A stretch of 64,000 nucleotides of DNA from Mesostigma viride (Eukaryota; Streptophyta; Mesostigmatophyceae; Mesostigmatales; Mesostigmataceae). The stretch covers positions 581,808-645,807 of the forward strand of contig RPFO01000130.1 of the NCBI GenBank assembly GCA_009746045.1. The letters are read 5' to 3'. The notes below the pieces were generated by a model. It had not been told where the DNA came from and searched no databases. It was given only the letters and a program-made list of their open reading frames with translations. Of this stretch, positions 9,263-64,000 are shown piece after piece; position 1 is the first letter of the stretch, and each line of letters starts with the position of its first letter. Both the position numbers and the translations under genes were made by a program.

Positions 9263-9412
9263 CTCCTCTTGTTGCACCACACGGAGAAGATGCCGCGGAT
9301 ACCAGCATAGGTGAAGCGGGAATCCAAGCGCGGCTGCCCTGTGAAGTATTATCTGGCATCTTGCAAAGCTTTGAAACGAACAAAGGAATAAACCGAGCGA
9401 CTGATGGGGGAG

Positions 9413-9600: not shown

Positions 9601-9628
9601 TCTTGTTGCTGTCAACCACTAAGCGCGC

Positions 9629-9660
9629 TTGCGTATGACCTGGGCACTTTATTGTCGGCG
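9629..9660 (-). other. Decayed copy of phosphodiesterase exon 10 end
   Basis: On the minus strand, GACAATAAAGTGCCCAGGTC repeats the end of exon 10 (GACAACAACGTGCCCAAGTC, 9739-9719) about 80 bp downstream of the real donor. The donor itself is lost here. Confidence 0.6.
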
Positions 9661-9714
9661 CATGCAGGGGATGCCAGCATGTCTGAAACAAATAGAGAAC
9701 AGCGCGGGGTGTAC

Positions 9715-15700: not shown

Positions 15701-18700
15701 AGCGGTGGCTATGCTGATCAGGGGACATCTAGGACAATACCTAAGTAAGAGGAAGTGGCAACGGCAATAATTAAAAACACAGGTTAAAGAATGACACTAG
15801 CTAAGTAAGGGCGATTACCAAGTAACACTTCCATGGCGCGGAAGTATGCCAGTGGTCAGGCAAAACATCCAAAGTCACAATAGGGATCCACAGAGTGCGG
15901 GGCCCCCCACCTCATTAGCTGCAGATGCCTCGTCCAGCTGGATGCCTTTAGCGGTGAGCACACTACTCAGCCACAGGGTGGATAGGCACATGGCCAGCGC
16001 GCCCACGATGGCCATGACCACGCCCAGCCCCATGCAGAGGGCGAGGCCAAAGTCGCGCGAGTGCTCGATCCCCCCCCACATCTCTCGACGGGGCACGACG
16101 AGGAAAACTACCAGCTGCAGTCCCTGGTGCTGCAAGGGGACGCTGTTGATGTAGTGGGGGCCGCTCCCGCTGATGTGAACGACGGCCTTGATGGACTCGG
16201 TGTGCATGCGATCACCGTATGTGCAGTTTATGTATCTGCAGGGATGCCACAGAGGATGTCGGTTCAGGCAGTGGTTCGCTACACTGCAGGTTTACAATCT
16301 GTTGGAACGAATAGGTGTAATCCTGGATGGAGGTACACAAAAGCCATTGATTGCCCTGTGAAAGCAGACCCATGTGTGGGCATCGTGCTGAAACTCAAGC
16401 ACTTGAACACATAGGTACGGTTGAATAGCGATGTCTAAGCCATATTTAGGTCCAGGGCAAAAATGGAGCAGTGTAGAAAAGGTTAGAATTGCTATAGCCT
16501 CGATGACGGACATGGGGTGCGAAAGCAGATAGCAGGGGATGGTCTGTGACAAAGACCACCTCCGAGTCAACGGCGATGGGGGGGATACAACAGCATCTCT
16601 TAGAACCATAAGAGATGACGGCATTAACCTTGCAAATACGGCACGGCCTAGAAACCGAGCCCGGCCCCTGCATATATCCAAAAACAAGCAGTGGTAGTAT
16701 CAGCGATAAACCCACCCAGGGTACAAACATACAGGCGCTGTAAATATACACTACGACAACGATGGTATTGTCTGCAGCAAACCAGCCAAGGAGGGGCCAC
16801 ATGGTCGCTGCAAATACAGGATGAATCAGCCAAGGGAACGCACATGGACGCCTCGCGGATGACCAGGTCGGAGGAGTTGGTGGCTGGCACAAAACGTGGT
16901 GGGGCGGGGAATGGCATCGGCAGGAACAACGTTCCATTGGACGCGGTGACCATGTTCATGGCCCGGCCCAGCGTGATGAACATGCGGCCGCCGTAGTCGC
17001 GCACCAGCGTGGTCGACTGGGTCATGTTCTGCAGCTTGGACGAGATCGAGGTGACTGACATCACCGCGGAGGTGGCACCGCTCGTATCCTTGAGAGCTCC
17101 GGCCACGAACAGGTAGGGCTGGAAGCCGTTGTCTGGGAAGGGGGAGCAGAGAAGCCACGCAGCAATAACACGCAGCAATAATGTAGGGATGAGGGGCATA
17201 TTGGCCACAAACAGGTACTGTGGGGCTGGAGGCCGTTGTCTGCGTGGATCAAATGGCAAGGGGGGACATGACTAGCCATAAAAGACAGTTATAAATGCTA
17301 CGAGAGCCTGCAAAAGGGTAATGCGATTCACCAATCTATATTGAAATGTCTGTGCGGAAGGGCTGGTGTAAACCAGGAAATGGCCGCTATTTAGGCACGA
17401 AATGTTCCCATAAGGGGGAAGGAAACACAGCCGCTGTAGATGAGGTTATTAACAATAAGCAATGGATGCGAGTCTGGACGAAAACAGCAGCAGCTGAACT
17501 AATGATGAGTGGTAGCATGCAGCGGCGATAGCACTCAAAACGGCCTAAAAGCAGCATGGCAGGGGCCGAAAAAATTATGGTAGAAAAGTGTCGATATTTA
17601 TAATCAAGAACCCGCAAACAAGGCAGTGGCCGGGCGTGGGTAGCAAAGGAGCTCAAAAACCCTTCGTTGCAACACAACCACACTCTCGCTAGACCAATAC
17701 CACGAGTGAGCCCCGTGTGGTCCCACCACGGTTCCTCCCTTGCCACCATGTGCTGTGCATTACAACAGGACAAAACAGGGCACGGATACGCGGCCAACAA
17801 GAGAGGGAGACATGGACCCTGTGGGGTAATGAATGACCTCCCCACATACAGGAGCTGTTTAGCTGCCAACTAGCTGGCCGAGCACACATCAAGCGCCGAT
17901 CACACGCGCATCCAAGTGCCGCGCACGCGCGCATTTAAGTGCCGCAAACGCGCGCATCCAAGTGCCGAGCACGCCCGCATCCAAGCGCCGAGCACGCGCG
18001 CATCCAAGCGCCGAGCACGCGCGCATCCAAGCGCCGAGCACACGCGCGGGATCCTTTGTTCCACTTGCCAACCACGTACCGACGGCCACGCTCCAATAGA
18101 AGACGTTCTTGGGCATCCGGCGCCCCACCAGCCAGATCGGGTTGGTCAGCGTGGAGCCGATCCCTGGGAAGTACCCCGACCCCGCCCATGGGACGGGGCA
18201 ACGCTCCGCGCACACTTTGCCGGAGGGACCCTGGGTGAGTGGGTCCCCTGTGGCCGGGTCAGGTACATACATATACAGCACCGCGATGCTGTCGTTCTTG
18301 GGGGGCGGCAGCGCCACAGCTTCACTGCTGCGGAGCACGGCTTGCTCCGGGCCGTTGCGGCGGTAGCCCGCGTAGCAGCCCACGCCAGAGAGCACCATCA
18401 CCGTCGTCATGTCCTTGTACGTGTTGAACACGCCCCACAGGGGGGGCAGCACGGGCCCTGACATGGTCTCCCACGAGTAGTCGGTGTAGAGGCCCCCCAG
18501 GGACACATAAAGGGCGCTCGCGGCCACGGACATGCGGTCCAGGAGGTTCTGCGGACGCGAGTGATGCATGGGCAGGTCAGACCAAGGGGGGCGGGGGCGG
18601 CGCACCATGTGAGCAGGATTTGATCCAACCCTTGGAGGAGGGGGGGGCGGGGGAGGCGGCATAGTCAGCAGGATTCCATCCGGGCCCACAGTCAGCAGGC

Positions 18701-37448: not shown

Positions 37449-40400
37449 ATGTCCGCTCCTGGGTCTCCCTTCGCGCAAAAAAGGTCCAGTTTCAAAGGAA
37501 CTACCACGGGTAATGTCTCTTCGCCAAAAGCTGACGTGGCACCCCGTGGAAGCTCTGGAGGCGGTGTCCGGCGCAACCCATCCACCTCCGCCGCCTCCCC
37601 GGCAGCTGTCGCCAGCAAGGCCCCTGGGAGGGGCAGCACGCCTGCCAAGGAGGAGAGGCCGGGCAGCGACACGGCGCGCGACCAAGACGGTTCCGATGAC
37701 GAAGCCGAGGGATCCACCCCCGCCCAGCCGGCGAAGAAGAAGTGGAAGAAAGTGCGCATCGCGGTCAACTTGTCTGCCTGCAAATACGACGTCTGTAAGT
37801 GATTCCTCACCACCCTATTGGTGCGCCCGCCACTCTATGGGTGCCCTCATTGCCTTTTATACTAGGGACTTCACACAGAGCATTTACCTTAAGGCTTACA
37901 GCATGTGTGTGAAGGCATCCAGCCTACCACGGCCTGGTACTGGTTTCATATGGCTGGCCAGTAGTGCTGACAGTCGTACAACCACCCTTTCACCTGCACT
38001 AGCCACCACCACCTGCTATTCATGCAGTGCAGCTCCGTACACTCCAGTAACCCAGCCATGTGACCACCACAGCAACCCGACCACCCGCCCGACCCTACCA
38101 CAATGCACCTTGACTTGGTCCCATCCTACACAAATGCACGGTGAGGTGCTTGTTTTGCCACATTTTTCTGTATCTATGCCGCCTGTCTTTCCCCCAATGA
38201 TGACCTAACTTACCACCAAACCATACCCAACCCAACCTATCTCTTGCTACCCAACCATAGGCTTATCCTGGCCCATGCCCCCCCATTCTCACCCTGTACC
38301 CACCCTATAAGCACACCCAGCACCCTGTGACCCACTCAAAAAACGTCCCTGTAGCCCTGATCGTTCCTACTACTGCACTGTGCACTAGGCTCGTAGAGCG
38401 AATGGGACGGTGCCTAGCAACCAGCCACCAACCCACCCACCCACCCACCCACCCACCCACCCACCCACCCACCCACCCACCCACCCACCCACCCACCCAC
38501 CCACCCACCCACCCACCCACCCACCCACCCACCCACCCACCCACCCACCCACCCACCCACCCACCCACCCACCCACCCACCCACCCGCCTGCCGACTTGC
38601 TTGCCAATAAGTTCCTTGTACCCTTAAGGCTTTTCTCCCCCTGTCGCATGCAGCACGCATCGTGCTGGCCGAGCTCATGCAAACGGGCCCATATCGCACA
38701 TGCTTCCCTTTTTTTCCCCTCACATGTCACATGCAGTGCGCATCGTGCTGGCCGAGCTCATGCAAACGGGCCCATATCGCACATGCTTCCCTTTTTTTCC
38801 CCTCACATGTCGCATGCAGTGCGCATCGTGCTGGCCGAGCTCATGCAAACGGGCCCATATCGCACATGCTTCCCTTTTTTTCCCCTCACATGTCGCATGC
38901 AGTGCGCATCGTGCTGGCCGAGCTCATGCAAACGGGCCCATATCGCACATGCTTCCCTTTTTTCCCCTCACATGTCACATGCAGCGCGCATCGTGCTGGC
39001 CGAGCTCATGCAAACGGGCCCATATCGCACATGCTTCCCTTTTTTTCCCTCACATGTCACATGCAGTGCGCATCGTGCTGGCCGAGCTCATGCAAACGGG
39101 CCCATATCGCACATGCTTCCCTTTTTTCCCCCTCACATGTCACATGCAGTGCGCATCGTGCTGGCCGAGCTCATGCAAACGGGCCCATATCGCACATGCT
39201 TCCCTTTTTTTCCCCTCACATGTCGCATGCAGTGCGCATCGTGCTGGCCGAGCTCATGCAAACGGGCCCATATCGCACATGCTTCCCTTTTTTCCCCCTC
39301 ACATGTCGCATGCAGTGCGCATCGTGCTGGCCGAGCTCATGCAAACGGGCCCATATCGCACATGCTTCCCTTTTTTCCCCTCACATGTCGCATGCAGCAC
39401 GCATCGTGCTGGCCGAGCTCATGCAAACGGGCCCATATCGCACATGCTTCCCTTTTTTCCCCTCACATGTCGCATGCAGTGCGCATCGTGCTGGCCGAGC
39501 TCATGCAAACGGGCCCATATCGCACATGCTTCCCTTTTTTCCCCCTCACATGTCACATGCAGCGCGCATCGTGCTGGCCGAGCTCATGCAAACGGGCCCA
39601 TATCGCACATGCTTCCCTTTTTTCCCCCTCACATGTCGCATGCAGCGCGCATCGTGCTGGCCGAGCTCATGCAAACGGGCCCATATCGCACATGCTTCCC
39701 TTTTTTCCCCCTCACATGTCGCATGCAGCGCGCATCGTGCTGGCCGAGCTCATGCAAACGGGCCCATATCGCACATGCTTCCCTTTTTTCCCCTCACATG
39801 TCACATGCAGCGCGCATCGTGCTGGCCGAGCTCATGCAAACGGGCCCATATCGCACATGCTTCCCTTTTTTCCCCTCACATGTCACATGCAGCGCGCATC
39901 GTGCTGGCCGAGCTCATGCAAACGGGCCCATATCGCACATGCTTCCCTTTTTTCCCCTCACATGTCACATGCAGCGCGCATCGTGCTGGCCGAGCTCATG
40001 CAAACGGGCCCATATCGCACATGCTTCCCTTTTTTCCCCTCACATGTCGCATGCAGCACGCATCGTGCTGGCCGAGCTCATGCAAACGGGCCCATATCGC
40101 ACATGCTTCCCTTTTTTCCCCTCACATGTCACATGCAGTGCGCATCGTGCTGGCCGAGCTCATGCAAACGGGCCCATATCGCACATGCTTCCCTTTTTTC
40201 CCCTCACATGTCGCATGCAGCACGCATCGTGCTGGCCGAGCTCATGCAAACGGGCCCATATCGCACATGCTTCCCTTTTTTCCCCTCACATGTCGCATGC
40301 AGTGCGCATCGTGCTGGCCGAGCTCATGCAAACGGGCCCATATCGCACATGCTTCCCTTTTTTCCCCCTCACATGTCACATGCAGCGCGCATCGTGCTGG

Positions 40401-43400
40401 CCGAGCTCATGCAAACGGGCCCATATCGCACATGCTTCCCTTTTTTCCCCCTCACATGTCGCATGCAGCGCGCATCGTGCTGGCCGAGCTCATGCAAACG
40501 GGCCCATATCGCACATGCTTCCCTTTTTTCCCCCTCACATGTCGCATGCAGCGCGCATCGTGCTGGCCGAGCTCATGCAAACGGGCCCATATCGCACATG
40601 CTTCCCTTTTTTCCCCTCACATGTCACATGCAGCGCGCATCGTGCTGGCCGAGCTCATGCAAACGGGCCCATATCGCACATGCTTCCCTTTTTTTCCCCT
40701 CACATGTCACATGCAGCGCGCATCGTGCTGGCCGAGCTCATGCAAACGGGCCCATATCGCACATGCTTCCCTTTTTTCCCCTCACATGTCACATGCAGTG
40801 CGCATCGTGCTGGCCGAGCTCATGCAAACGGGCCCATATCGCACATGCTTCCCTTTTTTTCCCCTCACATGTCACATGCAGCGCGCATCGTGCTGGCCGA
40901 GCTCATGCAAACGGGCCCATATCGCACATGCTTCCCTTTTTTTCCCCTCACATGTCACATGCAGCGCGCATCGTGCTGGCCGAGCTCATGCAAACGGGCC
41001 CATATCGCACATGCTTCCCTTTTTTTCCCCTCACATGTCACATGCAGTGCGCATCGTGCTGGCCGAGCTCATGCAAACGGGCCCATATCGCACATGCTTC
41101 CCTTTTTTTCCCCTCACATGTCGCATGCAGCGCGCATCGTGCTGGCCGAGCTCATGCAAACGGGCCCATATCGCACATGCTTCCCTTTTTTTCCCCTCAC
41201 ATGTCACATGCAGTGCGCATCGTGCTGGCCGAGCTCATGCAAACGGGCCCATATCGCACATGCTTCCCTTTTTTTCCCCTCACATGTCGCATGCAGTGCG
41301 CATCGTGCTGGCCGAGCTCAAGTGGAAGGAGGTGGGCGACGAGAGCGACTGGCACGTCTGCTGGATCGACACGTCCGTCTCCCTCGAGCGCGTCATGCGG
41401 CTCGCGCCCTACCAGGTACAACCGTATAGGACCACACAGGCTCACGAAGGGTAGGCTAGGGTAGGCTAGGGTAGGCTAGGGTAGGCTAGGCTAGGCTAGG
41501 CTAGGCTAGGCTAGGCTAGGCTAGGCTAGGCTAGGCTAGGCTAGGCTAGGCTAGGCTAGGCTAGGCTAGGGTAGGCGAGGCGAGGCGAGGCGAGGCGAGG
41601 CGAGGCGAGGCGAGGCGAGGCGAGGCGAGGCGAGGCGAGGCGAGGCGAGGCGAGGCGAGGCGAGGCGAGGCTAGGCTAGGGTAAGGTAGGGTAGGGTAGG
41701 GTAGGGTAGGGTAGGGTAGGGTAGGGTAGGGTAGGGTAGGGTAGGGTAGGGTAGGGTAGGGTAGGGTAGGGTAGGGTAGGGTAGGGTAGGGTAGGGTAGG
41801 GTAGGGTAGGGTAGGGTAGGGTAGGGTAGGGTAGGGTAGGGTAGGGTAGGGTAGGGTAGGGTAGGGTAGGGTACGGTAGGGTAGGGTACGGTAGGGTAGG
41901 GTAGGGTACGGTAGGGTAGGGACGCGAATGGTAAAGCAGGCGATGCGGGTAGACAGGCAATACAGGTGGATAGTCAACGAAGGTAGATAGGCAAAACATG
42001 GTAGATAGGCAACAAATGTGGATAGGCAACAAGGGTAGATAGGCAACTAGGGTATATAGGCAACAAAGGTGTATAGGCAACAAGGGTAGATAGGCAGCAA
42101 TGGTATATAGGCAGCAAAGGTGGATAGGCGACAAATATAGATAGGCAACAACACACTTGGTAGGCAACATAGAGGATAGGCAATGTGGCAGATAGGCAAC
42201 CCAGTAGAATGGCACAATAACTAGATAGGTAACACAAGCAGTTTAGTTAGGCTGCAACAGTACTTGAGCAAGGATTGTCTGGCGATGCAAGTGGGTGGGA
42301 GATGTAAGTAGATAGGCGAACACGTAGGGTAGCACAGACTTTGTAGGCTTCGTACGGACGGGCACGCTCTATATAGGCCATATACTTAGTAAAACAGGCA
42401 GCCTAGCAGAAAGTAATGCTTGTTGGGCCTGCGCCAATTCATGCCTCTCTATCTATGGGTTTAGTTGTTCTATCAGTAGTAAATAATTACTCACTGTTGG
42501 TATATAATTACTGACTGTTGGTGTATGATTACTCACTGTTGGTATATGATAACTCACTGTTGGGATATGACTACTCACTGTTGGTATATGATAACTCACT
42601 GTTGGGATATGATAACTCATTGTTGGGATGTGATAACTCACTGTTCGTATATGATAGCTCACTGTTGGGATATGATTACTCTCTGTTGGTATATGATAAC
42701 TCACTGTTGGCGCATCCGCCCCTACCATGGCATGCGCAGCATGGGATGATCGCGGCACGTTGTCGCCTTACTACCCCCCACGCGCGCCGACCTTGCTTCT
42801 CTTGGGGCACCGCATTCACCCCTCCCACGGCATGGTAGACATTCACATGGTGTTATTCTATGGTTATCCGATCGTGTTGTTGTGTTTGATCCGATCGTGT
42901 TGTTGTGTTTGATCCGATCGTGTTGTTGTGTTTGATCCGATCGTGTTGTTGTGTTTGATCCGATCATGTTGTTGTGTTTGATCCGATCGTGTTGTTGTGT
43001 TTGATCCGATCGTGTTGTGTTTGATCCGATCGTGTTGTTGCGTTTGATCCGATCGTGTTGTTGTGTTTGATCCGATCGTGTTGTTGTGTTTGTTCCGATC
43101 GTGTTGTGTTTGATCCGATCATGTTGTTGTGTTTGATCCGATCATGTTGTTGTGTTTGATCCGATCGTGTTGTGTTTGATCCGATCGTGTTGTTGTGTTT
43201 GATCCGATCGTGTTGTTGTGTTTGATCCGATCGTGTTGCTGTGTTTGTTCCGATCATGTTGTTGTGTTTGATCCGATCATGTTGTTGTGTTTGATCCGAT
43301 CGTGTTGTTGTGTTTGATCCGATCGTGTTGTTGTGTTTGATCCGATCGTGTTGTTGTGTTTGATCCGATCATGTTGTTGTGTTTGATCCGATCGTGTTGT

Positions 43401-46400
43401 GTTTGATCCGATCGTGTTGTTGTGTTTGATCCGATCGTGTTGTTGTGTTTGATCCGATCGTGTTGCTGTGTTTGTTCCGATCATGTTGTTGTGTTTGATC
43501 CGATCATGTTGTTGTGTTTGATCCGATCGTGTTGTTGTGTTTGATCCGATCGTGTTGTTGTGTTTGATCCGATCGTGTTGTTGTGTTTGATCCGATCGTG
43601 TTGCTGTGTTTGATCCGATCGTGTTGTTGTGTTTGATCCGATCGTGTTTTTGTGTTTGATCCGATCATGTCGTTGTCGTCGTTGTGTTTGTTTCCCTTTG
43701 GCACGTGGTATGCCCCTACCCCACACACAGCGGATGCACCATTCGCCGGGCATGCAGGACATGGGGATGACCTTTGTGTGCCGTTGCATGGACACTACAT
43801 CCCCCACGTGATGCTATTGGACATGTGTGCAGCGCATCAACCACTTCCACGGCATGCTGGACATCTGTCGCAAGAAGCCGCTCGCCCGCAACATCGGCCG
43901 CCTGCGCACGCTCTACCCGAACGATTATGGATACACGCCCCGCACGTTTGTACTGCCGGGAGAGTAAGTGACTCATCTCCTAAGCCAATAAGGCACTTGC
44001 ATGTAGCTTGGCCAGCGCATCGTTCACGCTAGGGTAAATAACCCGCGTTGAACTGAACACACGCTCGTGCTGCCGGGAGAGTAAGTGAACCCTTCTCCCC
44101 ACGACATCTAATCTTTTGAGCTGTACATGGGGATGCCGGATCTCGGAAATCCTATGGCTTGCTTGCTTGATGCTCACGCAGACTGATTGGGTGTCCCATG
44201 CAGGCTTGCTACCCAAACCCCTTAGCGTCGCGTGCTGCTCTGTGCGTGGCATGCCAGCCTCTGCCAGGCGTGCGAGGCTGCAGCAAGATGTGCCTACATC
44301 CTGTCGCCGTCTTTTGGTGTGCTGTCGCCGTCTTTTGGTGTGCTTGGTATGCCGCTATCCCATGGCTACACTTTCCAAGCAACATGCACTACTACTGCAT
44401 GCACTATGCACTGTACAGTGTACAGTGCACTGTAACATGTGCACGATACAGTGCGCTATAATATATGCACCATACAGCGATCCAACTACCTGGTACAGTT
44501 TCTGAAGGTCCAAGAGAGGCATGGGGGTGTTTGTCACGTTTGCAAGCATCCATGACATGCTCGTGGGGACTTTAAGAATTACAATATTCTCTGGATTTCC
44601 ACAAATGTCCGCGAAAGCGCGATGCCTTCGTCCACGTCGGTTACTGGTGTCCACCGTGTCGCCGCTCCCATTCTTGCACACGCCGTGCCTTCCTCGCACT
44701 CAAACACGCCGTGCCTTCCTCGCACTCAAACACAGCGTTCCTGTTTTCCCCCCTAACCCTTCCCGTCCCGCCTGCGTGACCCAGGATGCAAGAGTTCCTC
44801 GCTCAGTTCAACTCCAAGAAGACCAAGACGTACATCCTCAAGCCCGATGCAGGGTGCCAGGTATGCCCCCGTTGCTTGCAACCGCACGGGCCTTGGTTAG
44901 AAGCCAAAGTGCATGCCCAGAGCATGGGCCAGTTGCTCGGACAATGGCATGCTGTTGCTTATATTTACTACTCTGCTTTTTTTTTCTTGCCGGAGCATGA
45001 TGCACGGAGCCTGTTCGAAGGAGGCTACCAGCTACCTGCGTAGCACCCGCCGTCGCCCCGCTCGCCAACCCTGATGGTAGCACCCGCCGTCGTCCCGCTC
45101 GCCAACCCTGATGATAGCACCCGCCGTCGTCCCGCTCGCCAACCCTGATGGTAGCACTGGCAGTCGTCCCGCTCGCCAACCCTGATGGACAGTAGCATCC
45201 GCAGTAGTCCAGCTAGCCTACCCTAATGGACAGAGTTCCCGCGATGGTTCGATGTCCGACACTGTTTCCAGCAACCTCGTTCTTTGGCCCACCTGCGTTG
45301 CTTCCATTGTGCGTGCGTGTGTGTCTGTGTGTATTCGTGTGTATTCGTGTGTATTCGTGTGTTTTCGTGTCTATTCGTGTCTATTCGTGTGTATTCGTGT
45401 CTATTCGTGTCTATTCGTGTCTATTCGTGTCTATTCGTGTCTATTCGTGTCTATTCGTGTCTATTCGTGTCTATTCGTGTCTATTCGTGTCTATTCGTGT
45501 CTATTCGTGTCTATTCGTGTCTATTCGTGTGTGCACGTTTGTGCGTGGTGTGTGATTGTGTCCACGCGTGTGCGCGCATGTGCGTGCGCAGGGCAAGGGC
45601 ATCTCGCTGGCGCAAAGCGCGCAGGAGGTGATCCGCAACTTGGACGCGATCGGCACGCAGAACGTTGTGGCCCAGCGCTACCTGTCCAAGGTGAGAGCGC
45701 ATCATCCATGGAAGCCACAAGGTGAGGGGCGACGGCCCAAGATGAAAGCGCATGATCCGTGCTGGCCACCAGGTCAGGCGTGATGGCCCACAAGTCACCA
45801 TGGCTGCCAGTGAGCACCGGCCAGCTGCGCCCTCTGTGCTAGCCATGCCAGCCTGGCTGCCTGCTCACCCGCCCACTAGCCGACCAGCCCGCCCACCTGC
45901 TGGGTTACTGGACCCATACACCACCACCTCCCCCGCATCCACCACCTTGCAACCTGCCTGACTCGCCCGCGCTGGCAAGTGCTCGCGCGACCTGCCTGCC
46001 TTGCTCCAGCTGATTTTTCCCCGCTCTTTCCTCTTCACTTGCCCCCTACTTAATACCCCCCATCACCAATACCTCTGCTACCCCCCCCCCCCCCTTTCAG
46101 CCGCTGCTCATCAATGGCTTCAAGTTTGACATGCGCATCTACACGCTGACCACGAGCGTGGACCCGCTGCGCGTCTACGTCTACAAGGAGGGGCTCGCGC
46201 GGTTCTGCACGTCAAAATACATCAAGCCGAAACCCGACAACCTGGTGCGTGCTGCGTAGAGTCCATCACGCCGAAACCCGACAACCTGGTGCGTGCTGCG
46301 TAGAGTCCACCACGCCGAAACCCGACCACCTGGTGCTGCGTAGAGTCCATCACGCCGAAACCCGACAACCTGGTGCGTGCTGCGTAGAGTCCATCGCGCC

Positions 46401-49400
46401 GAAACCCGACAACCGTGTGCGTGCTGCGTAGAGTCCATCACGCCGAAACCCGACCACCTGGTGTGTGCTGCGTAGAGTCCATCACGCCGAAACCCGACAA
46501 CCTGGTGCGTGCTGCGTAGAGTCCATCACGCCGAAACCCGACCACCTGGTGCGTGCTGCGTAGAGTCCATCACGCCGAAACCCGACAACCTGGTGCGTGC
46601 TGCGTAGAGTCCACCACGCCGAAACCCGACAACCTGGTGTGTGCTGCATAGAGTCCATCACGCCGAAACCCGACAACCTGGTGCGTGCTGCGTAGAGTCC
46701 ATCACGCCGAAACCCGACAACCTGGTGCGTGCCGCGTAGAGTCCACCACGCCGAAACCCGACAACCTGGTGCGTGCTGCGTAGAGTCCACCACGCCGAAA
46801 CCCGACAACCTGGTGTGTGCTGCATAGAGTCCATCACGCCGAAACCCGACAACCTGGTGCGTGCTGCGTAGAGTCCATCACGCCGAAACCCGACAACCTG
46901 GTGCGTGCTGCGTAGAGTCCATCGCGCCGAAACCCGACAACCTGGTGTGTGCTGCATAGAGTCCATCACGCCGAAACCCGACAACCTGGTGCGTGCTGCG
47001 TAGAGTCCATCACGCCGAAACCCGGCAACCTGGTGCGTGCTGCGTAGAGTCCACCACGCCGAAACCCGACAACCTGGTGCGTGCTGCGTAGAGTCCACCA
47101 CGCCGAAACCCGACAACCTGGTGTGTGCTGCGTAGAGTCCATCGCGCCGAAACCCGACAACCTGGTGTGTGCTGCGTAGAGTCCATCACGCCGAAACCCG
47201 ACAACCTGGTGCGTGCTGCGTAGAGTCCACCACGCCGAAACCCGACAACCTGGTGCGTGCTGCGTAGAGTCCACCACGCCGAAACCCGACAACCTGGTGT
47301 GTGCTGCGTAGAGTCCATCACGCCGAAACCCGACAACCTGGTGCTGCGTAGAGTCCATCACGCCGAAACCCGACAACCTGGTGTGTGCTGCGTAGAGTCC
47401 ACCACGCCGAAACCCGACAACCTGGTGCTGCGTAGAGTCCACCACGCCGAAACCCGACAACCTGGTGTGTGCTGCGTAGAGTCCATCACGCCGAAACCCG
47501 ACAACCTGGTGCTGCGTAGAGTCCATCACGCCGAAACCCGACAACCTGGTGCGTGCTGCGTAGAGTCCATCACGCCGAAACCCGACAACCTGGTGCTGCG
47601 TAGAGTCCATCACGCCGAAACCCGACAACCTGGTGCTGCGTAGAGTCCACCACGCCGAAACCCGACAACCTGGTGTGTGCTGCGTAGAGTCCATCACGCC
47701 GAAACCCGACAACCTGGTGCTGCGTAGAGTCCATCACGCCGAAACCCGACAACCTGGTGTGTGCTGCGTAGAGTCCACCACGCCGAAACCCGACAACCTG
47801 GTGCTGCGTAGAGTCCACCACGCCGAAACCCGACAACCTGGTGTGTGCTGCGTAGAGTCCATCACGCCGAAACCCGACAACCTGGTGCTGCGTAGAGTCC
47901 ATCACGCCGAAACCCGACCACCTGGTGCGTGCTGCGTAGAGTCCATCACGCCGAAACCCGACAACCTGGTGCTGCGTAGAGTCCATCACGCCGAAACCCG
48001 ACAACCTGGTGCTGCGTAGAGTCCACCACGCCGAAACCCGACAACCTGGTGTGTGCTGCGTAGAGTCCATCACGCCGAAACCCGACAACCTGGTGCTGCG
48101 TAGAGTCCATCACGCCGAAACCCGACCACCTGGTGCGTGCTGCGTAGAGTCCATCACGCCGAAACCCGACAACCTGGTGCTGCGTAGAGTCCATCACGCC
48201 GAAACCCGACAACCTGGTGTGTGCTGCGTAGAGTCCATCACGCCGAAACCCGACAACCTGGTGCTGCGTAGAGTCCATCACGCCGAAACCCGACAACCTG
48301 GTGTGTGCTGCGTAGAGTCCATCACGCCGAAACCCGACAACCTGGTGCGTGCTGCGTAGAGTCCACCACGCCGAAACCCGACAACCTGGTGCGTGCTGCG
48401 TAGAGTCCATCGCGCCGAAACCCGACAACCTGGTGTGTGCTGCGTAGAGTCCATCACGCCGAAACCCGACAACCTGGTGCGTGCTGCGTAGAGTCCATCG
48501 CGCCGAAACCCGACAACCTGGTGTGTGCTGCGTAGAGTCCATCACGCCGAAACCCGACAACCTGGTGCGTGCTGCGTAGAGTCCATCGCGCCGAAACCCG
48601 ACAACCTGGTGCGTGCTGCGTAGAGTCCATCAGGCCGAAACCCGACAACCTGGTGTGTGCTGCGTAGAGTCCACCACGCCGAAACCCGACAACCTGGTGC
48701 GTGCTGCGTAGAGTCCACCACGCCGAAACCCGACAACCTGGTGCGTGCTGCGTAGAGTCCATCGCGCCGAAACCCGACAACCTGGTGCGTGCTGCGTAGA
48801 GTCCATCAGGCCGAAACCCGACAACCTGGTGCTGCGTAGAGTCCATCACGCCGAAACCCGACCACCTGGTGCGTGCTGCGTAGAGTCCATCACGCCGAAA
48901 CCCGACAACCTGGTGCTGCGTAGAGTCCATCACGCCGAAACCCGACAACCTGGTGCGTGCTGCGTAGAGTCCACCACGCCGAAACCCGACAACCTGGTGC
49001 GTGCTGCGTAGAGTCCATCGCGCCGAAACCCGACAACCTGGTGTGTGCTGCGTAGAGTCCATCACGCCGAAACCCGACAACCTGGTGCGTGCTGCGTAGA
49101 GTCCATCGCGCCGAAACCCGACAACCTGGTGCGTGCTGCGTAGAGTCCATCGCGCCGAAACCCGACAACCTGGTGCGTGCTGCGTAGAGTCCATCGCGCC
49201 GAAACCCGACAACCTGGTGTGTGCTGCGTAGAGTCCATCACGCCGAAACCCGACAACCTGGTGCGTGCTGCGTAGAGTCCATCGCGCCGAAACCCGACAA
49301 CCTGGTGTGTGCTGCGTAGAGTCCACCACACCGAAACCCGACAACCTGGTGTGTGCTGCGTAGAGTCCATCACGCCGAAACCCGACAACCGTGTGCGTGC

Positions 49401-52400
49401 TGCGTAGAGTCCATCGCGCCGAAACCCGACAACCTGGTGCGTGCTGCGTAGAGTCCATCAGGCCGAAACCCGACAACCTGGTGTGTGCTGCGTAGAGTCC
49501 ATCACGCCGAAACCCGACAACCGTGTGCGTGCTGCGTAGAGTCCATCGCGCCGAAACCCGACAACCTGGTGCGTGCTGCGTAGAGTCCATCGCGCCGAAA
49601 CCCGACAACCTGGTGCGTGCTGCGTAGAGTCCATCACGCCGAAACCCGACAACCTGGTGTGTGCTGCGTAGAGTCCATCACGCCGAAACCCGACAACCGT
49701 GTGCGTGCTGCGTAGAGTCCATCGCGCCGAAACCCGACAACCTGGTGCGTGCTGCGTAGAGTCCATCACGCCGAAACCCGACAACCTGGTGCGTGCTGCG
49801 TAGAGTCCACCACGCCGAAACCCGACAACCTGGTGCGTGCTGCGTAGAGTCCACCACGCCGAAACCCGACAACCGTGTGCGTGCTGCGTAGAGTCCATCA
49901 CGCCGAAACCCGACAACCTGGTGCGTGCTGCGTAGAGTCCACCACGCCGAAACCCGACCACCTGGTGTGTGCTGCGTAGAGTCCATCGCGCCGAAACCCG
50001 ACCACCTGGTGCGTGCTGCGTAGAGTCCACCACGCCGAAACCCGACAACCTGGTGCGTGCTGCGTAGAGTCCATCGCGCCGAAACCCGACCACCTGGTGC
50101 GTGCTGTGTAGAGTCCATCGCGCCGAAACCCGACAACCTGGTGCGTGCTGCGTAGAGTCCATCGCGCCGAAACCCGACAACCTGGTGCGTGCTGCGTAGA
50201 GTCCATCACGCCGAAACCCGACAACCTGGTGTGTGCTGCATAGAGTCCATCACGCCGAAACCCGACAACCTGGTGCGTGCTGCGTAGAGTCCATCACGCC
50301 GAAACCCGACCACCTGGTGCGTGCTGCGTAGAGTCCATCACGCCGAAACCCGACAACCGTGTGTGTGCTGCGTAGAGTCCATCACGCCGAAACCCGACAA
50401 CCTGGTGCGTGCTGCGTAGAGTCCATCCCGCCAAGGTCCCACAACCACCTGGTGCGCGCTGCATTGTAAGGTGCATCACGCCAACACCCGACCACCGTGT
50501 GTCAGCCTACATAAAGCGTTCTAAGGTGCATCAGCCCATGACCCGACAACGCGTGGGTGGCACAACCAGCACAGTCGTGGGTGGATGCATGGGCGGCCAT
50601 GGGTGGCACATGCCCCTGCATGCTCAGTGACCTGCACTCCTTTGTATATCGGCACGTAAACGGCACCGCATGCTCACTGACCTGCACTCCTTTGTATATC
50701 GGCACGTAAACGGCACCGCATGCTCACTGACCTGCACTCCTTTGTATACCGGCACGTAAACGGCACCGGGGTCTCTGCACGCTCCACTGTGCGCGTCGGG
50801 GTGGCGTCAGGGGTGGGTGCCTGGCTGCCTGCCCGAGTGCAAGTCACTGCTGCACCCTGGAGCTTCCCAGGGGTACTGCAGCTCAGAGGAGGTAGTGGCT
50901 CACATGGCTGGCAATTGGTTCGATACGACTCTGCAGATGGCTTATATCTATACTAGTCCAGATGTGGGATATGATGAGGTGCCGGTATGGCTGGCATACC
51001 GCTTGGCAGCATAGGGCTTTCCCCAACTGGCCGTGCACGAGTCATCTCACTGGCCATGGTGTTCCTGCACCTGCACCCAGCGTCGCTATAACATGTCCTT
51101 CCCTAACGATCACACCCACTGGACAAGGTGTTCATGCACCTGACCAACTGCGCCATGTGCTTGCATTCGCCTTTGTTACTCATTCCTTTAACGCCACACC
51201 CACAGGACAAGGTGTTCATGCACCTGACCAACTATGCCATCAACAAGCACAACGAGGAGTTCCACTTTGCGACGGGCGCGGAGAGCTCAGAGGACGACAG
51301 CAAGTGGTGGGTGAGGGGGCCATGAGATAAATGCAGTGTGAGATGAATGGATGGTGCGGGTGAGGGGTGAAAAGGGCAGGGGACATGTGCACCGGTGAGG
51401 GCAGGGGCATGAGTACCGATGAGGGCATTGGCATGAGTACCGGTGGGACCATGGGAGAGGCTGCAACTGTTACGATGGGCTTGTGGAAGGAGACTGCACT
51501 ACGAGAGGCAGCGGCCGGTGAAAAGTGTCTGGTCTTGAATGCCTGGGGCAAGAAAGCGCTTAGGAAGGCGCGGCAGATTGTCAGGTGGTCCCTGCCGGCG
51601 CTCCCCTCTCATCGCAGCAGGCATCCTTGTGTTGTCTTTTAATTGAGATTACCGCTGTGGCTTCCTTCTTGCGGATGAGTGATGACCCAGGCTTGTGTCG
51701 GCGCTGATGCTCGTGGCGGCGGGCGCCCCTGCCCTCACATCCGCGTATGCTAGGGATGCTAGGGATCGTTGACTTGGCCTACCCTTGCGCCCTCTGCGGT
51801 GGCGGGCGGCACCCACGTGCGTTTTCCTTACCCCTTGCCAGCCCGCCGGAGCATGACCAGCGGATGCAGCACCCGTCCTTGTCGCTGACGATGCAAGCCC
51901 GCGTGTGTGTTGTCCCTTCTGCTTGCGATGGGGGGGCGCAGGAGCATGACCAAGCTGATGCAGCACCTGCAGAAGACACAGGGCATCGATCCTGACGAGA
52001 TGTGGATGTCCATCGCGGTATGAGGGATTAGGGAAAGTGTGGTTATCACATTTGGCCTTCTGCTTAGGTTAACCTTTTCATGCATGCAGGTTGAGCGCAC
52101 GGTCTGGGATCACCGTCGCAGTCTCTGATCTAATAGGTTAGGATGATTAGCACATCAGCCGGGACCACTAGACATACCCAGCTGGCTGGTCTCTATACGT
52201 TTGTGATTGTGACCCCCCCACACTCTTGTATGATGTGCCACTGCAGCACCACATCATGATGGATCCCCACGCATCGCCGATGCTTATACCTCAATGTCTT
52301 CTCTGACGCGCGGCACATTGGAGGCCTGGTGGCCAAGGCCTTCATTAGTGCTGCAACCTATGTAATAGGACCTTTGGCTATTCTATCTGTGACTTGCGTA

Positions 52401-55400
52401 CACTATTCATTGCAGGACCTGGTGGTGAAGACCGTCATCATCGCCGTGCCTGATCCAACCTGACCCACTGGCTATTATGTATGGACTCATGTACCCTTGC
52501 ACCGTGGGCTCCAGGACCTGGTGGTGAAGACCATCATCATCGTCGTGCCCCAGCTCATCTTCAACTACCGCTCGAGTGGGGGCCACGAGGCCTCCTCCTC
52601 CGTCTACGGGTCTCAGTGCTTCGAGCTGCTGGGCTTCGACATCATGCTCGACGAGAAGCACCGGCCGTGGCTGATTGAGGTGGGTGCCGTTAGATAGGGT
52701 ACAGCTAGGTGTGCTATAGTATAGGTGCTATAGTATAGGTGCTACAGTAAAGGTATAGGATACAGCTAGTTGTGCTATAGTAAGCACCGTATAGCCTGGC
52801 GTGCATGTCTGCCACCTGCTGGGCTTCGGCCTCGTGATCGTTTGTTAGTTCCCAGAGGTGGACCATTCCCCGTCCCACATCGTCAAGGCCCTGCTTGGCC
52901 TATGCCCATCAGCCCGCCTTTCTCTCGTTCTGTTTCCAGCCCATTCACCAGGGCGCGCTCGGCCTCCCTCACCATGGACACGTTGCTGGACCTGGCGCCC
53001 AACGTCTGACCCTCCTTTCCTCAAAAGTGGCGACCGTGGGAAATGGTAGAAACGCACGCTGACACCCACTCAGTTACGCCGGGGTGGACCGCTCGCCCTC
53101 CACGGTGGACACCCCCCTGGACCTGGCCATCGATGCCTTTCCCACCCTTCCTCACTACCACACTTGTCCCCACACACCTGCTTGCCCCTGCACCCCCAAC
53201 CTCAGGTGAACCACTCACCTTCCTTCACGGTGGACACCCCACTAGACCTGGCCATCAAGCGTGCACTCATCAGCGACACGCTCAAGATGGTGATCGACAC
53301 CAAGGCGGTCGGCCGGCTCAAGAGCGAGGAGAAGGAGATGCTGGCCTCCCGGCTGTACGCGTCGCGCCAGATGAAGGGGGGGACGTCTGGCAGAGAGGTG
53401 AGCGCCGCAGTGCCTGACAAGCCATAGGGCAATAAGGAGGTGGGTCCATTGTGCATGCTATAGGGGACAGGTACATGCTAGGAGGAGGTGGGTCCATTGT
53501 CCATGCTATAGGGGACAGGTACATGCTAGGAGGAGGTGGGTCCATTGTGCATGCTATAGGGGACAGGTACATGCTAGGAGGAGGAGGGTCCATTGTGCAT
53601 GCTATAGGGGACAGGTACATGCTAGGAGGAGGAGGGTCCATTGTGCATGCTATAGGGGACAGGTACATGCTAGGAGGTGGGTCCATTGTGCATGCTATAG
53701 GGGACAGGTACATGCTAGGAGGAGGTGGGTCCATTGTGCATGCTTAGGGGACAGGTAGATGCTATGAGGAGGTGGGTCCATTGTGCATGCTATAGGGGAC
53801 AGGTACATGCTAGGAGGAGGTGGGTCCATTGTGCATGCTATAGGGGACAGGTAGATGCTATGAGGAGGTGGGTCCATTGTGCATGCTATGGGGGACAGGT
53901 CCATGCTAGGAGGAGGTGGGTCCATTGTGCATGCTATAGGGGACAGGTACATGCTAGGAGGAGGTGGGTCCATTGTGCATGCTATAGGGGACAGGTACAT
54001 GCTAGGAGGAGGTGGGTCCATTGTGCATGCTATAGGGGACAGGTACATGCTAGGAGGAGGTGGGTCCATTGTGCATGCTATAGGGGACAGGTACATGCTA
54101 GGAGGAGGTGAGTCCATTGTGCATGCTATGGGGGACAGGTACATGCTAGGAGGAGGAGGGTCCATTGTGCATGCTATAGGGGACAGGTACATGCTAGGAG
54201 GAGGTGGGTCCATTGTGCATGCTATAGGGGACAGGTACATGCTAGGAGGAGGTGGGTCCATTGTGCATGCTATAGGGGACAGGTACATGCTAGGAGGAGG
54301 TGGGTCCATTGTGCATGCTATAGGGGACAGGTACATGCTAGGAGGAGGTGGGTCCATTGTGCATGCTATAGGGGACAGGTACATGCTATGAGGAGGTGGG
54401 TCCATTGTGCATGCTATGGGGGACAGGTACATGCTAGGAGGAGGTGGGTCCATTGTGCATGCTATAGGGGACAGGTACATGCTAGGAGGAGGTGGGTCCA
54501 TTGTGCATGCTATAGGGGACAGGTCCATGCTAGGAGGAGGTGGGTCCATTGTGCATGCTATAGGGGACAGGTCCATGCTAGGAGGAGGTGGGTCCATTGT
54601 GCATGCTATAGGGGACAGGTACATGCCATGAGGAGGTGGGTCCAGTGTGCATCCTATAGTGGACAGGTACATGCTAGGAGGAGGTGGGTCCATTGTGCAT
54701 GCTATAGGGGACAGGTACATGCCATGAGGAGGTGGGTCCAGTGTGCATCCTATAGTGGACAGGTACATGCCATGAGGAGGTGGGTCCAGTGTGCATGCTA
54801 TAGGGGACAGGTACATGCTAGGAGGAGGTGGGTCCATTGTGCATGCTATAGGGGACAGGTACATGCTATAAGGAGGTGGGTCCATTGTGCATGCTATAGG
54901 GGACAGGTACATGCTTGGAGGTGGAGGTGGGTCCATTGTGCATGCTATAGGGGCTCTAGCCCTGCTACGAGGGGCTTATGTGCGACACCGGCCTGGCCTT
55001 TGCGTCACCTTCGCTCGCCCACTGGATTGGTGCCGTCCACAGGATTCGGATGCGCGCAGGCGGCTGTTTATGGTGTAGGGTTTGGGGCGTCAGGGGTCAG
55101 GGGGCAGGGGGCAGGGGGCAGGGGGCAGGGGGCAGGGGGCAGGGGCAGGGGGCAGGGGGCAGGGGGCAGGGGGCAGGGGGCAGGGGCAGGGGGCAGGGGG
55201 CAGGGGGCAGGGGGCAGGGGGCAGGGGGCAGGGGTTTAGGGGCTAGGGGCCAGGGGCCAGGGGCCAGGCGCCAGGCGCCAGGGGCTAGGGGCTAGGGGCT
55301 AGGGGCTAGGGGCTAGGGGCTAGGGGCTAGGGGCTAGGGGCTAGGGGCTAGGGGCTAGGGGCTAGGGGCTAGGGGCTAGGGGCTAGGGGCTAGGGGCTAG

Positions 55401-58400
55401 GGGCTAGGGGCTAGGGGCTAGGGGCTAGGGGCTAGGGGCTAGGGGCTAGGGGCTAGGGGCTAGGGGACCGGGGCTAGGGGCTAGGGGCTAGGGGCTAGGG
55501 GCTAGGGCTTAGGAGTTAGGTGCCACCCACAGCTCTGCTTACCCGGCTATGCCTCACGCTGCTGAGTTTTCTCTTTTTCCTGACTCGATGACGCCATCGA
55601 CTTTTGCCGCAGGACGAGGACGCGCGGGAGCGTGCGCGCGCCCAGAAGGAGGCGGTGCAGGCCAAGAGGGACAAGATGGAGCTCGCGAATCTGGTGGGTT
55701 ACATGGGCTGGATAGATGGACAAGGCGGTGCAGGCAAACTGGCAAAGAGGGACACGATGGAGCTCGCGATTCTGGTGGGTGTGCAGTCAGGCAAATTGTT
55801 GGGAATGGCTGGTGTATGGGTTTATGGATGTGTCAACGCAAGCCGAAGGGCGACAAGAGGGAGTGCGCCCATCTGGTCGGTTGAGTCACCTGAGTGGTTG
55901 CGATTCCTGGTAGGGGCGGTCTGTGGGTGAGGCGGCGTAAGCAGACGAGGGACAGAAACGGGGGTCGCAAACCTGGTGGGTTCCACGAGCTGGATAGGCA
56001 TCATCACTCAAGCGGTGGGTGGGCGGGTGGGCGGGTGGGTGGGTGGGCGGGTGGGTGGGTGGGCGGATGGGTGGGTGGGCGGGTGGGTGGGTGGGCGGGT
56101 GGGCGGGTGGGTGGGTGGGCGGGTTGGTGGGTGGGTGGGCGGGTGGGTGGGTGGGCGGGTGGGTGGGTGGGCGGGTGGGTGGGCGGGCGGGTGGGCGGGC
56201 AGGCGGGTGGGTGGTCGGGTGGGTGGGTGGGCGGGTGGGTGGGCGGGCGGGTGGGAGGGTGGGTGGGCGGGTGGGAGGGTGGGTGGGGGTGGGTGGTGGG
56301 TGGGTGGGTGGGTGGGTGGGTGGGTGGGTGGGTGGGTGGGTGGGTGGGTGGGTGGTGGGTGGGTGGGTGGGTGGGTGGGTGGGTGGGTGGGTGGGTGGGT
56401 GGGTGGGCGGGCGGCGGGCGGGCGGGCGGGCGCGGGGCGGGCGGGCGGGCGGGCGGGCGGCGGGCGGGCGGGCGGCGGGCGGGCGGGCGGGCGGGCGGGC
56501 GGCGGGCGGGCGGGCGGGCGGGCGGGCGGGCGGGCGGGCGGGCGGGCGGGGTGAGGTGACGAAAGCAGAATTGCGACGAAACGGAGTGTTGGCCCTCAAG
56601 CTTTGAAGTTGGAGTGGATGTCGGTGTGGCGGCACCTCGGAACGTGGCAGCACTGTGGATAGTTCAGCAGTGATAGATGGGAAGGTGAGAGGTCAGAGCA
56701 GCTATAGGTGAGAGGTCGGGGCTTGTCTGCATACCCTTGAAGCTTACCCATACAAATCGTTTGTGTATGAGATCGTCCCATGCCCAACAACGGGGCAGAG
56801 CTTTGCATTTCGATCCACAATAGCTTGTCTTGCTTTCTGGCGTATACTGCTACAGACAGCACCCTCGTCATCAACCACCAGGTTGTTCCACACCCAAATC
56901 TTACCCTCCCTTACTCTGTTCCTATCCTCACCTACTTAAGCACTGTGGCTTGTCGCTCGGCTCACACTTTAGATTGAATCCCGCAATCCCGATTCACGTA
57001 CACGAGCACCCTCGTACGTATCTCCCCCTCCCCGAATATACAGCGCGGTCGCCATCGAAGCCTGCGGATGCTTGCAGTACCTTTAGCTGTGAGTCCCCTG
57101 CCACCCCCTCAGGGCTAACTAGCCGCCCACGTACCCCCACGTCACGTGCTCTGTTTCCACGGGGTATCCCACACCGCCCATCCCCACCACCTCCCCGCCA
57201 CCAGGGCAACTACTTCCCCGCCTACCCCCTGCCCGACGAGAAGAAGATGGCCAAGTATGCGGAGCTGCTGGCAGCTGCCGAGAAGGTCTTCCACGGTGAG
57301 GGGTGGGGAGGGGAGCTGAGCGTGGGGGTGGCAACGTCTTCCACGGTGAGGGGAGGGGGGGGGGAGCTGAGCGTGGGGGTGGCAAGGTCTTCCACGGTGA
57401 GGGGAGGGGGGGGGAGCTGAGCGTGGGGGTGGCAAGGTCTTCCACGGTGAGGGGAGGGGGGGGGAGCTGAGGGGGGGGTTGGCAAGGTCTTCCACGGTGA
57501 GGGGTGGGGAGGGGAGCTGAGCGTGGGGGTGGCAACGTCTTCCACGGTGAGGGGTGGGGGGGAGGGAGGGTTGAGGGTGGGGTTGGCAAGGTCTTCCACT
57601 GTGAGGGGTGGGGTGGGGGGCTGAATCAGGGGGCTGAGTCAGCTCAGGGGTTCAGACGCTGGTAACAGACGCAAGCAGGTGGAACCATCCCAATATAGTG
57701 CTCAAGGCATGTGGAGCCATCCCAATATAGTGCTTAAGGCATGTGGAACCATCCCAATATAGTGCTTAAGGCATGTGGAACCATCCCAATATAGTGCTCA
57801 AGGCATGTGGAACCATCCCAATATAGTGCTTAAGGCATGTGGAACCATCCCAATATAGTGCTCAAGGCATGTGGAACCATCCCAATATAGTGCTTAAGGC
57901 AGGTGGAACCATCCCAATATAGTGCTCAAGGCAGGTGGAACCATCCCAATATAGTGCTCAAGGCATGTGGAGCCATCCCAATATAGTGCTCAAGGCATGT
58001 GGAACCATCCCAATATAGTGCTTAAGGCATGTGGAACCATCCCAATATAGTGCTCAAGGCATGTGGAACCATCCCAATATAGTGCTTAAGGCATGTGGAA
58101 CCATCCCAATATAGTGCTTAAGGCATGTGGAACCATCCCAATATAGTGCTTAAGGCATGTGGAACCATCCCAATATAGTGCTCAAGGCATGTGGAACCAT
58201 CCCAATATAGTGCTTAAGGCATGTGGAACCATCCCAATATAGTGCTTAAGGCATGTGGAACCATCCCAATATAGTGCTTAGTGCATGTGGAACCATCCCA
58301 ATATAGTGCTTAAGGCATGTGGAACCATCCCAATATAGTGCTCAAGGCATGTGGAACCATCCCAATATAGTGCTTAAGGCAGGTGGAACCATCCCAATAT

Positions 58401-62638: not shown

Positions 62639-63319
62639 GTGAGTGGCGGCTTGGCTAGGATATTAAAGAGAATGGCTGGCAAAGTTGTAGCAGCAGGGTG
62701 AGGGCATGCGGGTGGATATGGCGTGGGCCATCACTTTGCAAGGCACCTGCCGTGGACACCAAGCTTTTACAGCTAGCCTTACTATCGGGCACGAGGTAGT
62801 TTGTTTGTCACACGCATGGTGTAGGAGGGCATGGGAGTATTCCCTGTGCTTTCTTCAAGTAGTGGGCGCAGCATATTAGACGGGGCAGGTTCGTGGTCTT
62901 GTCCGTTGCTGGCCTGTTGAGCGGGTGACGTCGTGTGTGCGAAAGCCAACACGTGTCCGGTGACGTCGTGTTGGCTTTCGCACTGACGTTTCATTCCTGA
63001 TTTCAACGTCGTGTGGCAGCGCTTGTGTTCGCAGGCATGCTGGGTAGATGGTTGATCGGGTCAGGCTGGTTGGCAGTCTTGGGACTGCTGTTTGGGGGTG
63101 TCAGAAGGGGTGGTTAAGCATGTGCCGCGTGGCAGGACCTGTTACTTAAGTAATTAAGTACTTGCATGTCATGCGCATGGGCATGCCTGTTTCTTAAGTG
63201 GCAGATCCAGCATTACAACAGCCATTCAACCCCACGCAGGCCATTTTCTGAGCCGTTCTTCCCTCTAGCACCCAGCATCGTGTTTGCTATCATGCAAAGG
63301 ACGGGATTGTATCGGCTAT
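62639..63319. other. TTLL intron 13 or downstream sequence
   Basis: No following TTLL exon was placed with confidence. Contains a perfect inverted repeat (62938-62982) and, at about 63140-63187, sequence related to the 171-bp element at 3298-3468. Confidence 0.4.
62938..62982. repeat. Perfect inverted repeat, 16-bp arms
   Basis: TGCGAAAGCCAACACG and its exact complement CGTGTTGGCTTTCGCA, separated by about 13 bp, each arm flanked by GTGACGTCGTG-like sequence. It could form a hairpin; function unknown. Confidence 0.8.
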
Positions 63320-63371
63320 GCCCTGTCCTCACGTGTCTATTAATTAATTAATTAATTAATGCCCTGTCCTC
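63320..63371 (+). mobile_element. Minimal 30-bp LINE insertion with target duplication
   Basis: ACGTGTCTAT followed by (TAAT)n at 63331-63360 equals the very last 10 bases and tail of the LINE copies at 3591-3620. It is flanked by identical 11-bp GCCCTGTCCTC at 63320-63330 and 63361-63371. It is an insertion truncated almost to nothing. Confidence 0.8.
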
Positions 63372-64000
63372 GACATGCCCTGTCCTCGGCTATGCCCCGG
63401 GGGTCACCCTTGCGATGCGTTGGTGTAAAGCATCCAGCAGCCACTCCTTGGCTTCACCGCCGGAGCCAACATAAGGATCAGCAATTGAGCTAGTGAGATG
63501 TCATGATTGTCTTGGCGGCAATCTGCATTAATGTTCAGATTGACAGTGAAGTGCCACGTGGTCATCGTGTTTCCTGCCAGTGATTATCATGTTGGTACAT
63601 GGAGATGCCTGCTGATGATGATGGCTGCACCCTGCGGGTGGGCATTCTTTTCAGGGAAATCGGCTGGTTTGACAGGAGGCCTCGCTGGGGCGCACTTCAT
63701 AAGGGGATTCCATAGAGCAAATCACCCACCCATCTGCGTGTGTTCTCATGCATGGCCAGCATGGACGCGAGTGTGTAGGTTGGTCTCGATGTGGATTCTG
63801 GTTACTATAGCAGGGCATGAACTTTGGGCCGAAAAAGTGCTTACTGTTATGTGCTTCTCCGTGTCTTCATTTGCGCTGGTCTTTCGTCGTTGCCTATCCT
63901 GTGGGCAGGGTGCCGCTGAAAGTGCGGGCTCCAGGCCAAGGCCCCGCAGAGGGAGGCATATGATCCCATTACAAAACACCAGCCATGTGTAGTTTGCGTC
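63372..64000. other. No gene placed
   Basis: A possible last TTLL exon starts after GTGGGCAG at about 63908; in the required phase it would read 18 codons to a TGA at 63959-63963. This rests on one acceptor and the phase only. Confidence 0.2.

Follow-up and report, generated by a model that had tools for sequence, protein, structure and literature searches.

Tandem copies of exon edges in the introns of a TTLL gene from the streptophyte alga Mesostigma viride

The TTLL gene and the array at its exon 6 donor

We analyzed a 64-kb stretch of DNA from Mesostigma viride (contig RPFO01000130.1), which we call the window. It contains a TTLL gene on the plus strand, whose exon 6 donor edge is repeated nearly a hundred times in the adjacent intron, and a phosphodiesterase gene on the minus strand. 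The model of the TTLL gene has 13 exons and 12 introns, each of them GT-AG; where exon 13 ends is uncertain. The predicted protein carries the TTL domain (PF03133, E = 3.7e-79). Its nearest solved structure is that of TTLL6 (8t42, E = 4.2e-104), which points to a TTLL6-like gene. A 576-residue query was a 100% match to Mv11928 (P0001; jgi/Mesvir1 in eukprot), and the translation of the full exon chain is identical to Mv11928 over the first 933 of 987 residues. This agrees with the TTLL exon 6 assignment in a preliminary description of the window, and the junction between exons 6 and 7 (46244/51206) belongs to the 12-intron chain that agrees with the deposited protein. Past residue 933, the deposited model diverges from the open frame (61000-63992), and its C-terminus is doubtful. 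Mv11928 appears to come from the published annotation of M. viride, which merged predictors, homology, and PacBio and Illumina transcripts (PMC6947507).

The exons and arrays that matter most are listed below; the arrays were located with Tandem Repeats Finder (TRF). The exons are from the comparison of the exon chain with Mv11928. Intron 1 is 3502 bp long and intron 6 is 4961 bp long.

38642..41320, plus strand: array of the exon 2 acceptor edge, 83-bp unit, 32 copies, with the true acceptor (exon start 41297) last (TRF and edge alignment)
41297..41415, plus strand: TTLL exon 2
46101..46244, plus strand: TTLL exon 6, whose final 25 bases belong to unit 1 in the next feature
46220..50432, plus strand: 97-unit minisatellite (44- and 40-bp units) of the exon 6 donor edge, with the true donor first (TRF, unit split, and motif scan)
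50424..50560, plus strand: 3' end of that array, with some three units that are longer and decayed (from reading the sequence; the last match ends at 50559)
51206..51306, plus strand: TTLL exon 7
57283..57624, plus strand: array of the exon 12 donor edge, 50-bp unit, 6.7 copies, with the true donor first (TRF and edge alignment)

The preliminary description counted about 97 tandem donors, and TRF gives the same figure (46220-50432, period 44, 97.2 copies, 93% matches). Splitting the array by unit also gave 97: 80 units are 44 bp long and 16 are 40 bp long, and the final one grades into decayed copies. Matches to the motif GCCGAAACCCGACAACCTGGTG (a 22-base core with at most 3 mismatches) number 97 in the window, and all are on the plus strand and within the array; the mean over 100 shuffles was 0.00 matches. 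Unit 1 is the modelled junction of exon 6 and intron 6. It comprises 25 exon bases (CATC...CCTG, 46220-46244) followed by 19 bases of intron. The unit does derive from the end of exon 6 and its donor, as had been claimed, but not in the proposed proportions of about 19 and 20 bases. By the gene model, the true donor is indeed the first of the series.

The donor dinucleotide is intact throughout, with GT in 97/97 units by direct count. (Automatic alignment gave an intact GT in just 64 of 98 exon 6 copies, which we attribute to gap placement in shorter or altered units.) From -3 to +6, 49 of the 97 units are alike, including the true donor, so that 48 of the 96 decoys match it and 48 differ; the variants are CTGGTGTGT (26 units), CTGGTGCTG (16), CGTGTGCGT (5), and CGTGTGTGT (1). 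From -19 to +19, 39/96 decoys equal the true donor (40/97 identical units if the true one is counted). Position or wider context, not these 38 bases of local sequence, must therefore discriminate the true donor from these 39 decoys, which makes the array a natural experiment on splice-site choice.

The array was derived from the exon. The end of exon 6 encodes Y..P...N[LIV]....MHLTNY, and among the matches listed (the top 120 of 2009), 119 of 120 TTLL proteins contain this motif. Mv11928 itself is one of the 120, and a few bivalve genes account for many of the others through their isoforms. The single protein that does not match, P0057, has Q where the motif calls for [LIV]. Because the residues encoded by the end of exon 6 match in 119/120 of these proteins, it is older than the array; the same result led us to reject a capture of the end of exon 6 from the array. 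Unit position 6 is A in the exon copy (AAG) and C or G in the other 96 units. In the four successive quarters of the array, units differ from the modal unit by a mean edit distance of 1.32, 2.83, 1.38, and 1.42. An Rfam scan found no match at gathering thresholds, and a scan of viral contigs for the unit found 0 matches, as expected.

Tandem arrays are prone to error in long-read assemblies, so we considered an artefact that affects either the array itself or its length. The donor array has 27 distinct types of unit and low repetition at lags of 1 to 12, and a misassembly would not be expected to produce the decayed single copies at other exon edges (see below). Also, the window seems to stem from the published M. 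viride assembly, which had 113x PacBio coverage with a read N50 of 11.2 kb, which exceeds the 4.2 kb of the array, and optical maps (PMC6947507). We consider an artefact very unlikely, although the exact number of units may be off.

What would happen if splicing slipped to a decoy? If exon 7 is joined to any of the downstream donors, the same TAG stop follows in 96/96 cases, at codon 310, the fifth codon past the junction, because each decoy reads the first intron bases as GTG CGT GCT GCG TAG. The preliminary description had claimed a TAG within five codons after most donors, and the actual pattern is stronger. RNAs that are mis-spliced in this way would probably decay. This raises the possibility of a regulated or noisy switch, as proposed in that description, in which use of downstream donors tunes the level of TTLL via truncated, decaying transcripts. 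The close match of many decoys to the true donor and the stop shared by all of them are compatible with a switch, and such effects are conceivable: an intronic minisatellite of C. elegans is reported to be enriched near multiple splicing decisions (PMC4039745). On the other hand, with every decoy transcript truncated at the same codon, 97 sites offer no advantage over a single one. Arrangements of this kind also recur at many unrelated edges, including those of another gene, which fits a mutational process better. We think it very improbable that the array is a switch.

An acceptor array and copies of other exon edges

Although the array described at first is real, treating it as a single unusual array was too narrow. 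A mirrored array lies at the acceptor edge of exon 2, a smaller array lies at the donor edge of exon 12, and copies of many other edges are present, also in the second gene. Like the exon 6 array, the exon 2 and exon 12 arrays have a unit that spans the boundary, and the unit at one end is the modelled boundary itself. AG is kept in 32/32 of the upstream copies of the exon 2 acceptor, and GT is intact in 6/6 of the intron copies of the exon 12 donor. The identity of the decoys is less strict in the acceptor array than in the donor array: over the stretch from -50 to +21, only 3/32 decoy acceptors are identical to the true site, and 6/32 are so from -20 to +23. Unlike in the donor array, 11/32 of the upstream acceptors would give an in-frame insert that is free of stops through exon 6.

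The acceptor array (38642-41320) is open in three frames, with open reading frames of 1067, 947, and 933 amino acids. We rejected coding selection on the stop-free 83-bp unit, as shuffling indicated that a unit would be stop-free by chance with a probability of ~0.06.

To quantify the copying of exon edges, we aligned 40-nt exon edges to the adjoining intron and counted scores of at least 14. For the phosphodiesterase gene (P0121, Mv11926; minus strand), 11 exons were mapped exactly, and one of its introns begins with GC. A copy in the adjoining intron was found for 10/24 TTLL edges and 4/20 phosphodiesterase edges (14/44 in all), and the copied edges of the two genes include both donor and acceptor sides. 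The copies outside of the three arrays are as follows.

42710..43762, plus strand: three decayed copies of the TTLL exon 3 acceptor edge (42710-42735, 42807-42842, and 43728-43762), AG in 1/3
44060..44096, plus strand: copy of the TTLL exon 3 donor edge, GT intact, 31/36 identical
45737..45756, plus strand: copy of the TTLL exon 5 donor edge, with AT in place of GT
51111..51156, plus strand: copy of the TTLL exon 7 acceptor edge, 43/46 identical but with TG in place of AG, 84 bp upstream
51048-51093, plus strand: weaker copy of the TTLL exon 7 acceptor edge
51844..51873, plus strand: copy of the TTLL exon 8 acceptor edge, AG lost
52413..52450, plus strand: copy of the TTLL exon 9 acceptor edge, 99 bp upstream, AG intact
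52322-52345 and 52242-52275, plus strand: weaker copies of the TTLL exon 9 acceptor edge
52856..53131, plus strand: three copies of the TTLL exon 10 acceptor edge (52856-52911, 52958-53005, and 53083-53131), AG in 1/3
55714..55990, plus strand: three copies of the TTLL exon 11 donor edge, GT in 3/3
17203..17242, minus strand: copy of the phosphodiesterase exon 3 acceptor edge, AG kept
9623..11665, minus strand: copies of phosphodiesterase donor edges, for exons 7 (11665-11624), 9 (10095-10037), and 10 (9657-9623)

The copy of the exon 5 donor spans just 5 exon bases and thus fails the 40-nt test. Seventeen of the 44 edges were aligned in detail, and 16 of these had a copy that scored at least 13. 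The nearest copy is 44-122 bp from the original for 15 of the 16 edges, as expected for short tandem duplications, and 566 bp away for phosphodiesterase exon 7. Outside of the arrays, further copies lie up to 1122 bp away (a copy of exon 3).

The controls support the copying of edges into their own adjoining introns. With the reverse complement of the same introns, 0/44 edges had a copy (highest score 13), and with the intron on the wrong side of the exon, 0/40 did (highest score 12). For 13 of the 14 edges with copies, the score was higher than that of any of 100 random introns. When we moved 30-nt windows into the exon and required a score of at least 13, the number of windows with copies fell with depth, from 12/44 at the junction to 8/43 at 15 nt, 3/43 at 30 nt, and 1/39 at 45 nt; reverse-complemented windows gave 0/44 at the junction.

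Could the arrays be mobile elements that bring their own splice sites? Introner elements are dispersed, mobile repeats that carry splice signals, and the arrays resemble them in being repeated intronic sequence with splice sites. But unit 1 of the donor array is coding sequence that is conserved in the listed TTLL proteins, and its unit is found nowhere else in the window (all 97 matches are in the array). The other arrays each match their own exon. Introners are dispersed, whereas these arrays are local, each derived from its own exon, and we saw no dispersal over unrelated introns within the 64 kb. We give an introner-like origin almost no credence.

Other repeats lie in the introns of both genes. 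Intron 10 of TTLL holds a 48-bp repeat (53435-54953, 32 copies by TRF) whose unit contains AGGAGGTGGGT; the exon 10 donor edge scores just 8 against this intron. Intron 12 holds a 32-bp repeat (57675-60616, 92 copies by TRF), for which an exon of origin was not found, and 3.9 copies of CTAAACC (60708-60734, TRF), which is the plant-type telomere repeat in rotated form. In the phosphodiesterase model, the last intron is long and contains a 92-bp repeat (7151-9265, 23 copies by TRF). The final 42-base exon of that model (5081-5040) is 4.6 kb away and may be a model error. Between the two genes, on the minus strand, there is a fragment of a reverse transcriptase (PF00078; 25969-26673), that is, a retroelement.

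A proposed boundary-spanning minisatellite and the choice of splice site

We propose, with a probability of roughly 0.8, that the donor array is a boundary-spanning minisatellite of the type known as "mirage": tandem duplications arise across exon-intron junctions and are tolerated since the exon-proximal site works, plausibly via exon definition. A short tandem duplication would have arisen across the junction of exon 6 and intron 6, and the duplicate would then have been amplified and homogenised within the intron, while coding selection held the exon copy in place. Similar copies recur in the TTLL gene and in the nearby phosphodiesterase gene, at donor and acceptor edges alike. Within an exon, a tandem duplication would in most cases damage the protein, and one within an intron would mostly be free, while one across a junction would be free if the exon-side site works. 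Such duplications would be tolerated as long as the exon-proximal site stays in use, which is the first donor or the last acceptor. This tolerance filter alone would account for both a true donor that is first and a true acceptor that is last.

In the deposited model, the true site of both large arrays is the one next to the exon, and judging from the gene models, the exon-proximal sites are probably the ones used. The mirrored acceptor array separates two rules for how a site might be chosen: if the first site made is the one used, the first acceptor should be chosen, and if the site nearest across the exon is used, the last one should be. A preference for the nearest site would fit both arrays, while "first made, first used" would fit the donors but not the acceptors. 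A preference for the closest pair of sites across the exon is reported for exons with long flanking introns (PMC9225289). Exon definition is a likely reason for the tolerance, as the introns are long and the sites in use would be the nearest pair across a short exon.

Are junctions special, or are duplications frequent throughout the introns, so that those crossing a junction are merely made visible by the conservation of the exon? This alternative is compatible with the boundary-spanning reading and concerns the cause of the excess at edges. Among intron-internal windows outside of the TRF arrays, 34/345 have same-strand copies (and 5/345 have opposite-strand copies), and of the 17 arrays in the TTLL introns that have a period of at least 10, 13 touch no junction. 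(These 17 were listed by hand from the TRF output, with overlapping rows merged.) But the edges have copies more often (14/44 versus 34/345, Fisher p = 0.0002), and arrays overlap junctions more often than expected (4 of 17 versus 0.83 expected, p ~ 0.006). Some of the 34 intron-internal copies probably derive from exon edges themselves. Both tests of an excess are small, and the comparison of edges to interiors is biased by conservation. We judge that junctions are ordinary with somewhat less than even odds.

Several points weigh against our proposal. All of the splice junctions used here come from gene models. We chose the threshold of 14 once the scores were known; 2/44 edges reached 15 and 14 against another intron of their own gene, and the score of the TTLL exon 12 donor was reached by 1/100 random introns. 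Isolated windows deeper in the exons also reach 13 (for example, 1/33 at 60 nt and 1/23 at 105 nt), as do isolated reverse-complemented windows (1/43 at 15 nt and 1/33 at 60 nt). The same-strand copies within introns, mentioned above, also count here: the excess at edges is about 3-fold, and perhaps less because conserved exon sequence keeps copies easier to detect. Finally, the evidence for an excess at junctions is limited to two genes in one 64-kb window.

A more sweeping version would be that splice junctions in Mesostigma are hot spots for tandem duplication, with introns growing genome-wide by copying of exon edges, and that at both the donor and the acceptor array of the TTLL gene the spliceosome selects the true site from identical neighbours by position alone, as the nearest across the exon. 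We view this version as doubtful.

Comparison with known repeats at splice sites

Rogers' model, as cited in PMC3087553, explains the gain of introns by tandem duplication of AG/GT proto-splice sites. Our arrays likewise suggest that coding sequence with a splice-like site was duplicated in tandem, but they enlarge existing introns, and we saw no new intron. Dual-specific splice sites are described for tandem-repeat genes such as human UBC (PMC10809524), which also have a tandem array of splice sites within one gene. The UBC-type units are coding and the isoforms vary in the number of units, whereas the Mesostigma donor unit is intronic, has a length of 44 or 40 bp, and brings an in-frame TAG.

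In human genes within segmental duplications, variable minisatellites lie on exon-intron boundaries, as in Mesostigma, and 27 intron modifications remained after the authors' inspection (PMC2812944). The human repeats are described as 30-bp units in 4 copies on average that can create new introns or alternative transcripts, while the Mesostigma arrays enlarge introns that already exist.

The closest parallel is with the "mirage" minisatellites of amphioxus (in Adh3, globins, troponin C, and PGBD5), which are tandem repeats over exon-intron boundaries, either 5' or 3', with AG or GT kept in many units; RT-PCR (reverse transcription PCR) suggested that splicing was normal (PMC3087553, PMC3902484). 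The Mesostigma arrays share the boundary-spanning unit, the occurrence on both sides of exons, and the retention of the splice dinucleotides. They differ in that Mesostigma is a streptophyte alga rather than a cephalochordate, in being known here from DNA and gene models, and in that 14/44 edges of two genes are affected. The large arrays have 97 and 32 units, as compared to the 6 and 3 units of 150-160 bp that are reported for one amphioxus globin gene. Among the matches listed from the open-licence literature, judged by title, none described such arrays in algae or plants, and this is likely the first report of them in algae. The Mesostigma arrays are a further case of boundary minisatellites, with far more units than the counts that we found for the described cases. 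They suggest a route of intron growth in a lineage that is distant from amphioxus and human, in which boundary minisatellites were described (PMC3087553, PMC3902484, PMC2812944).

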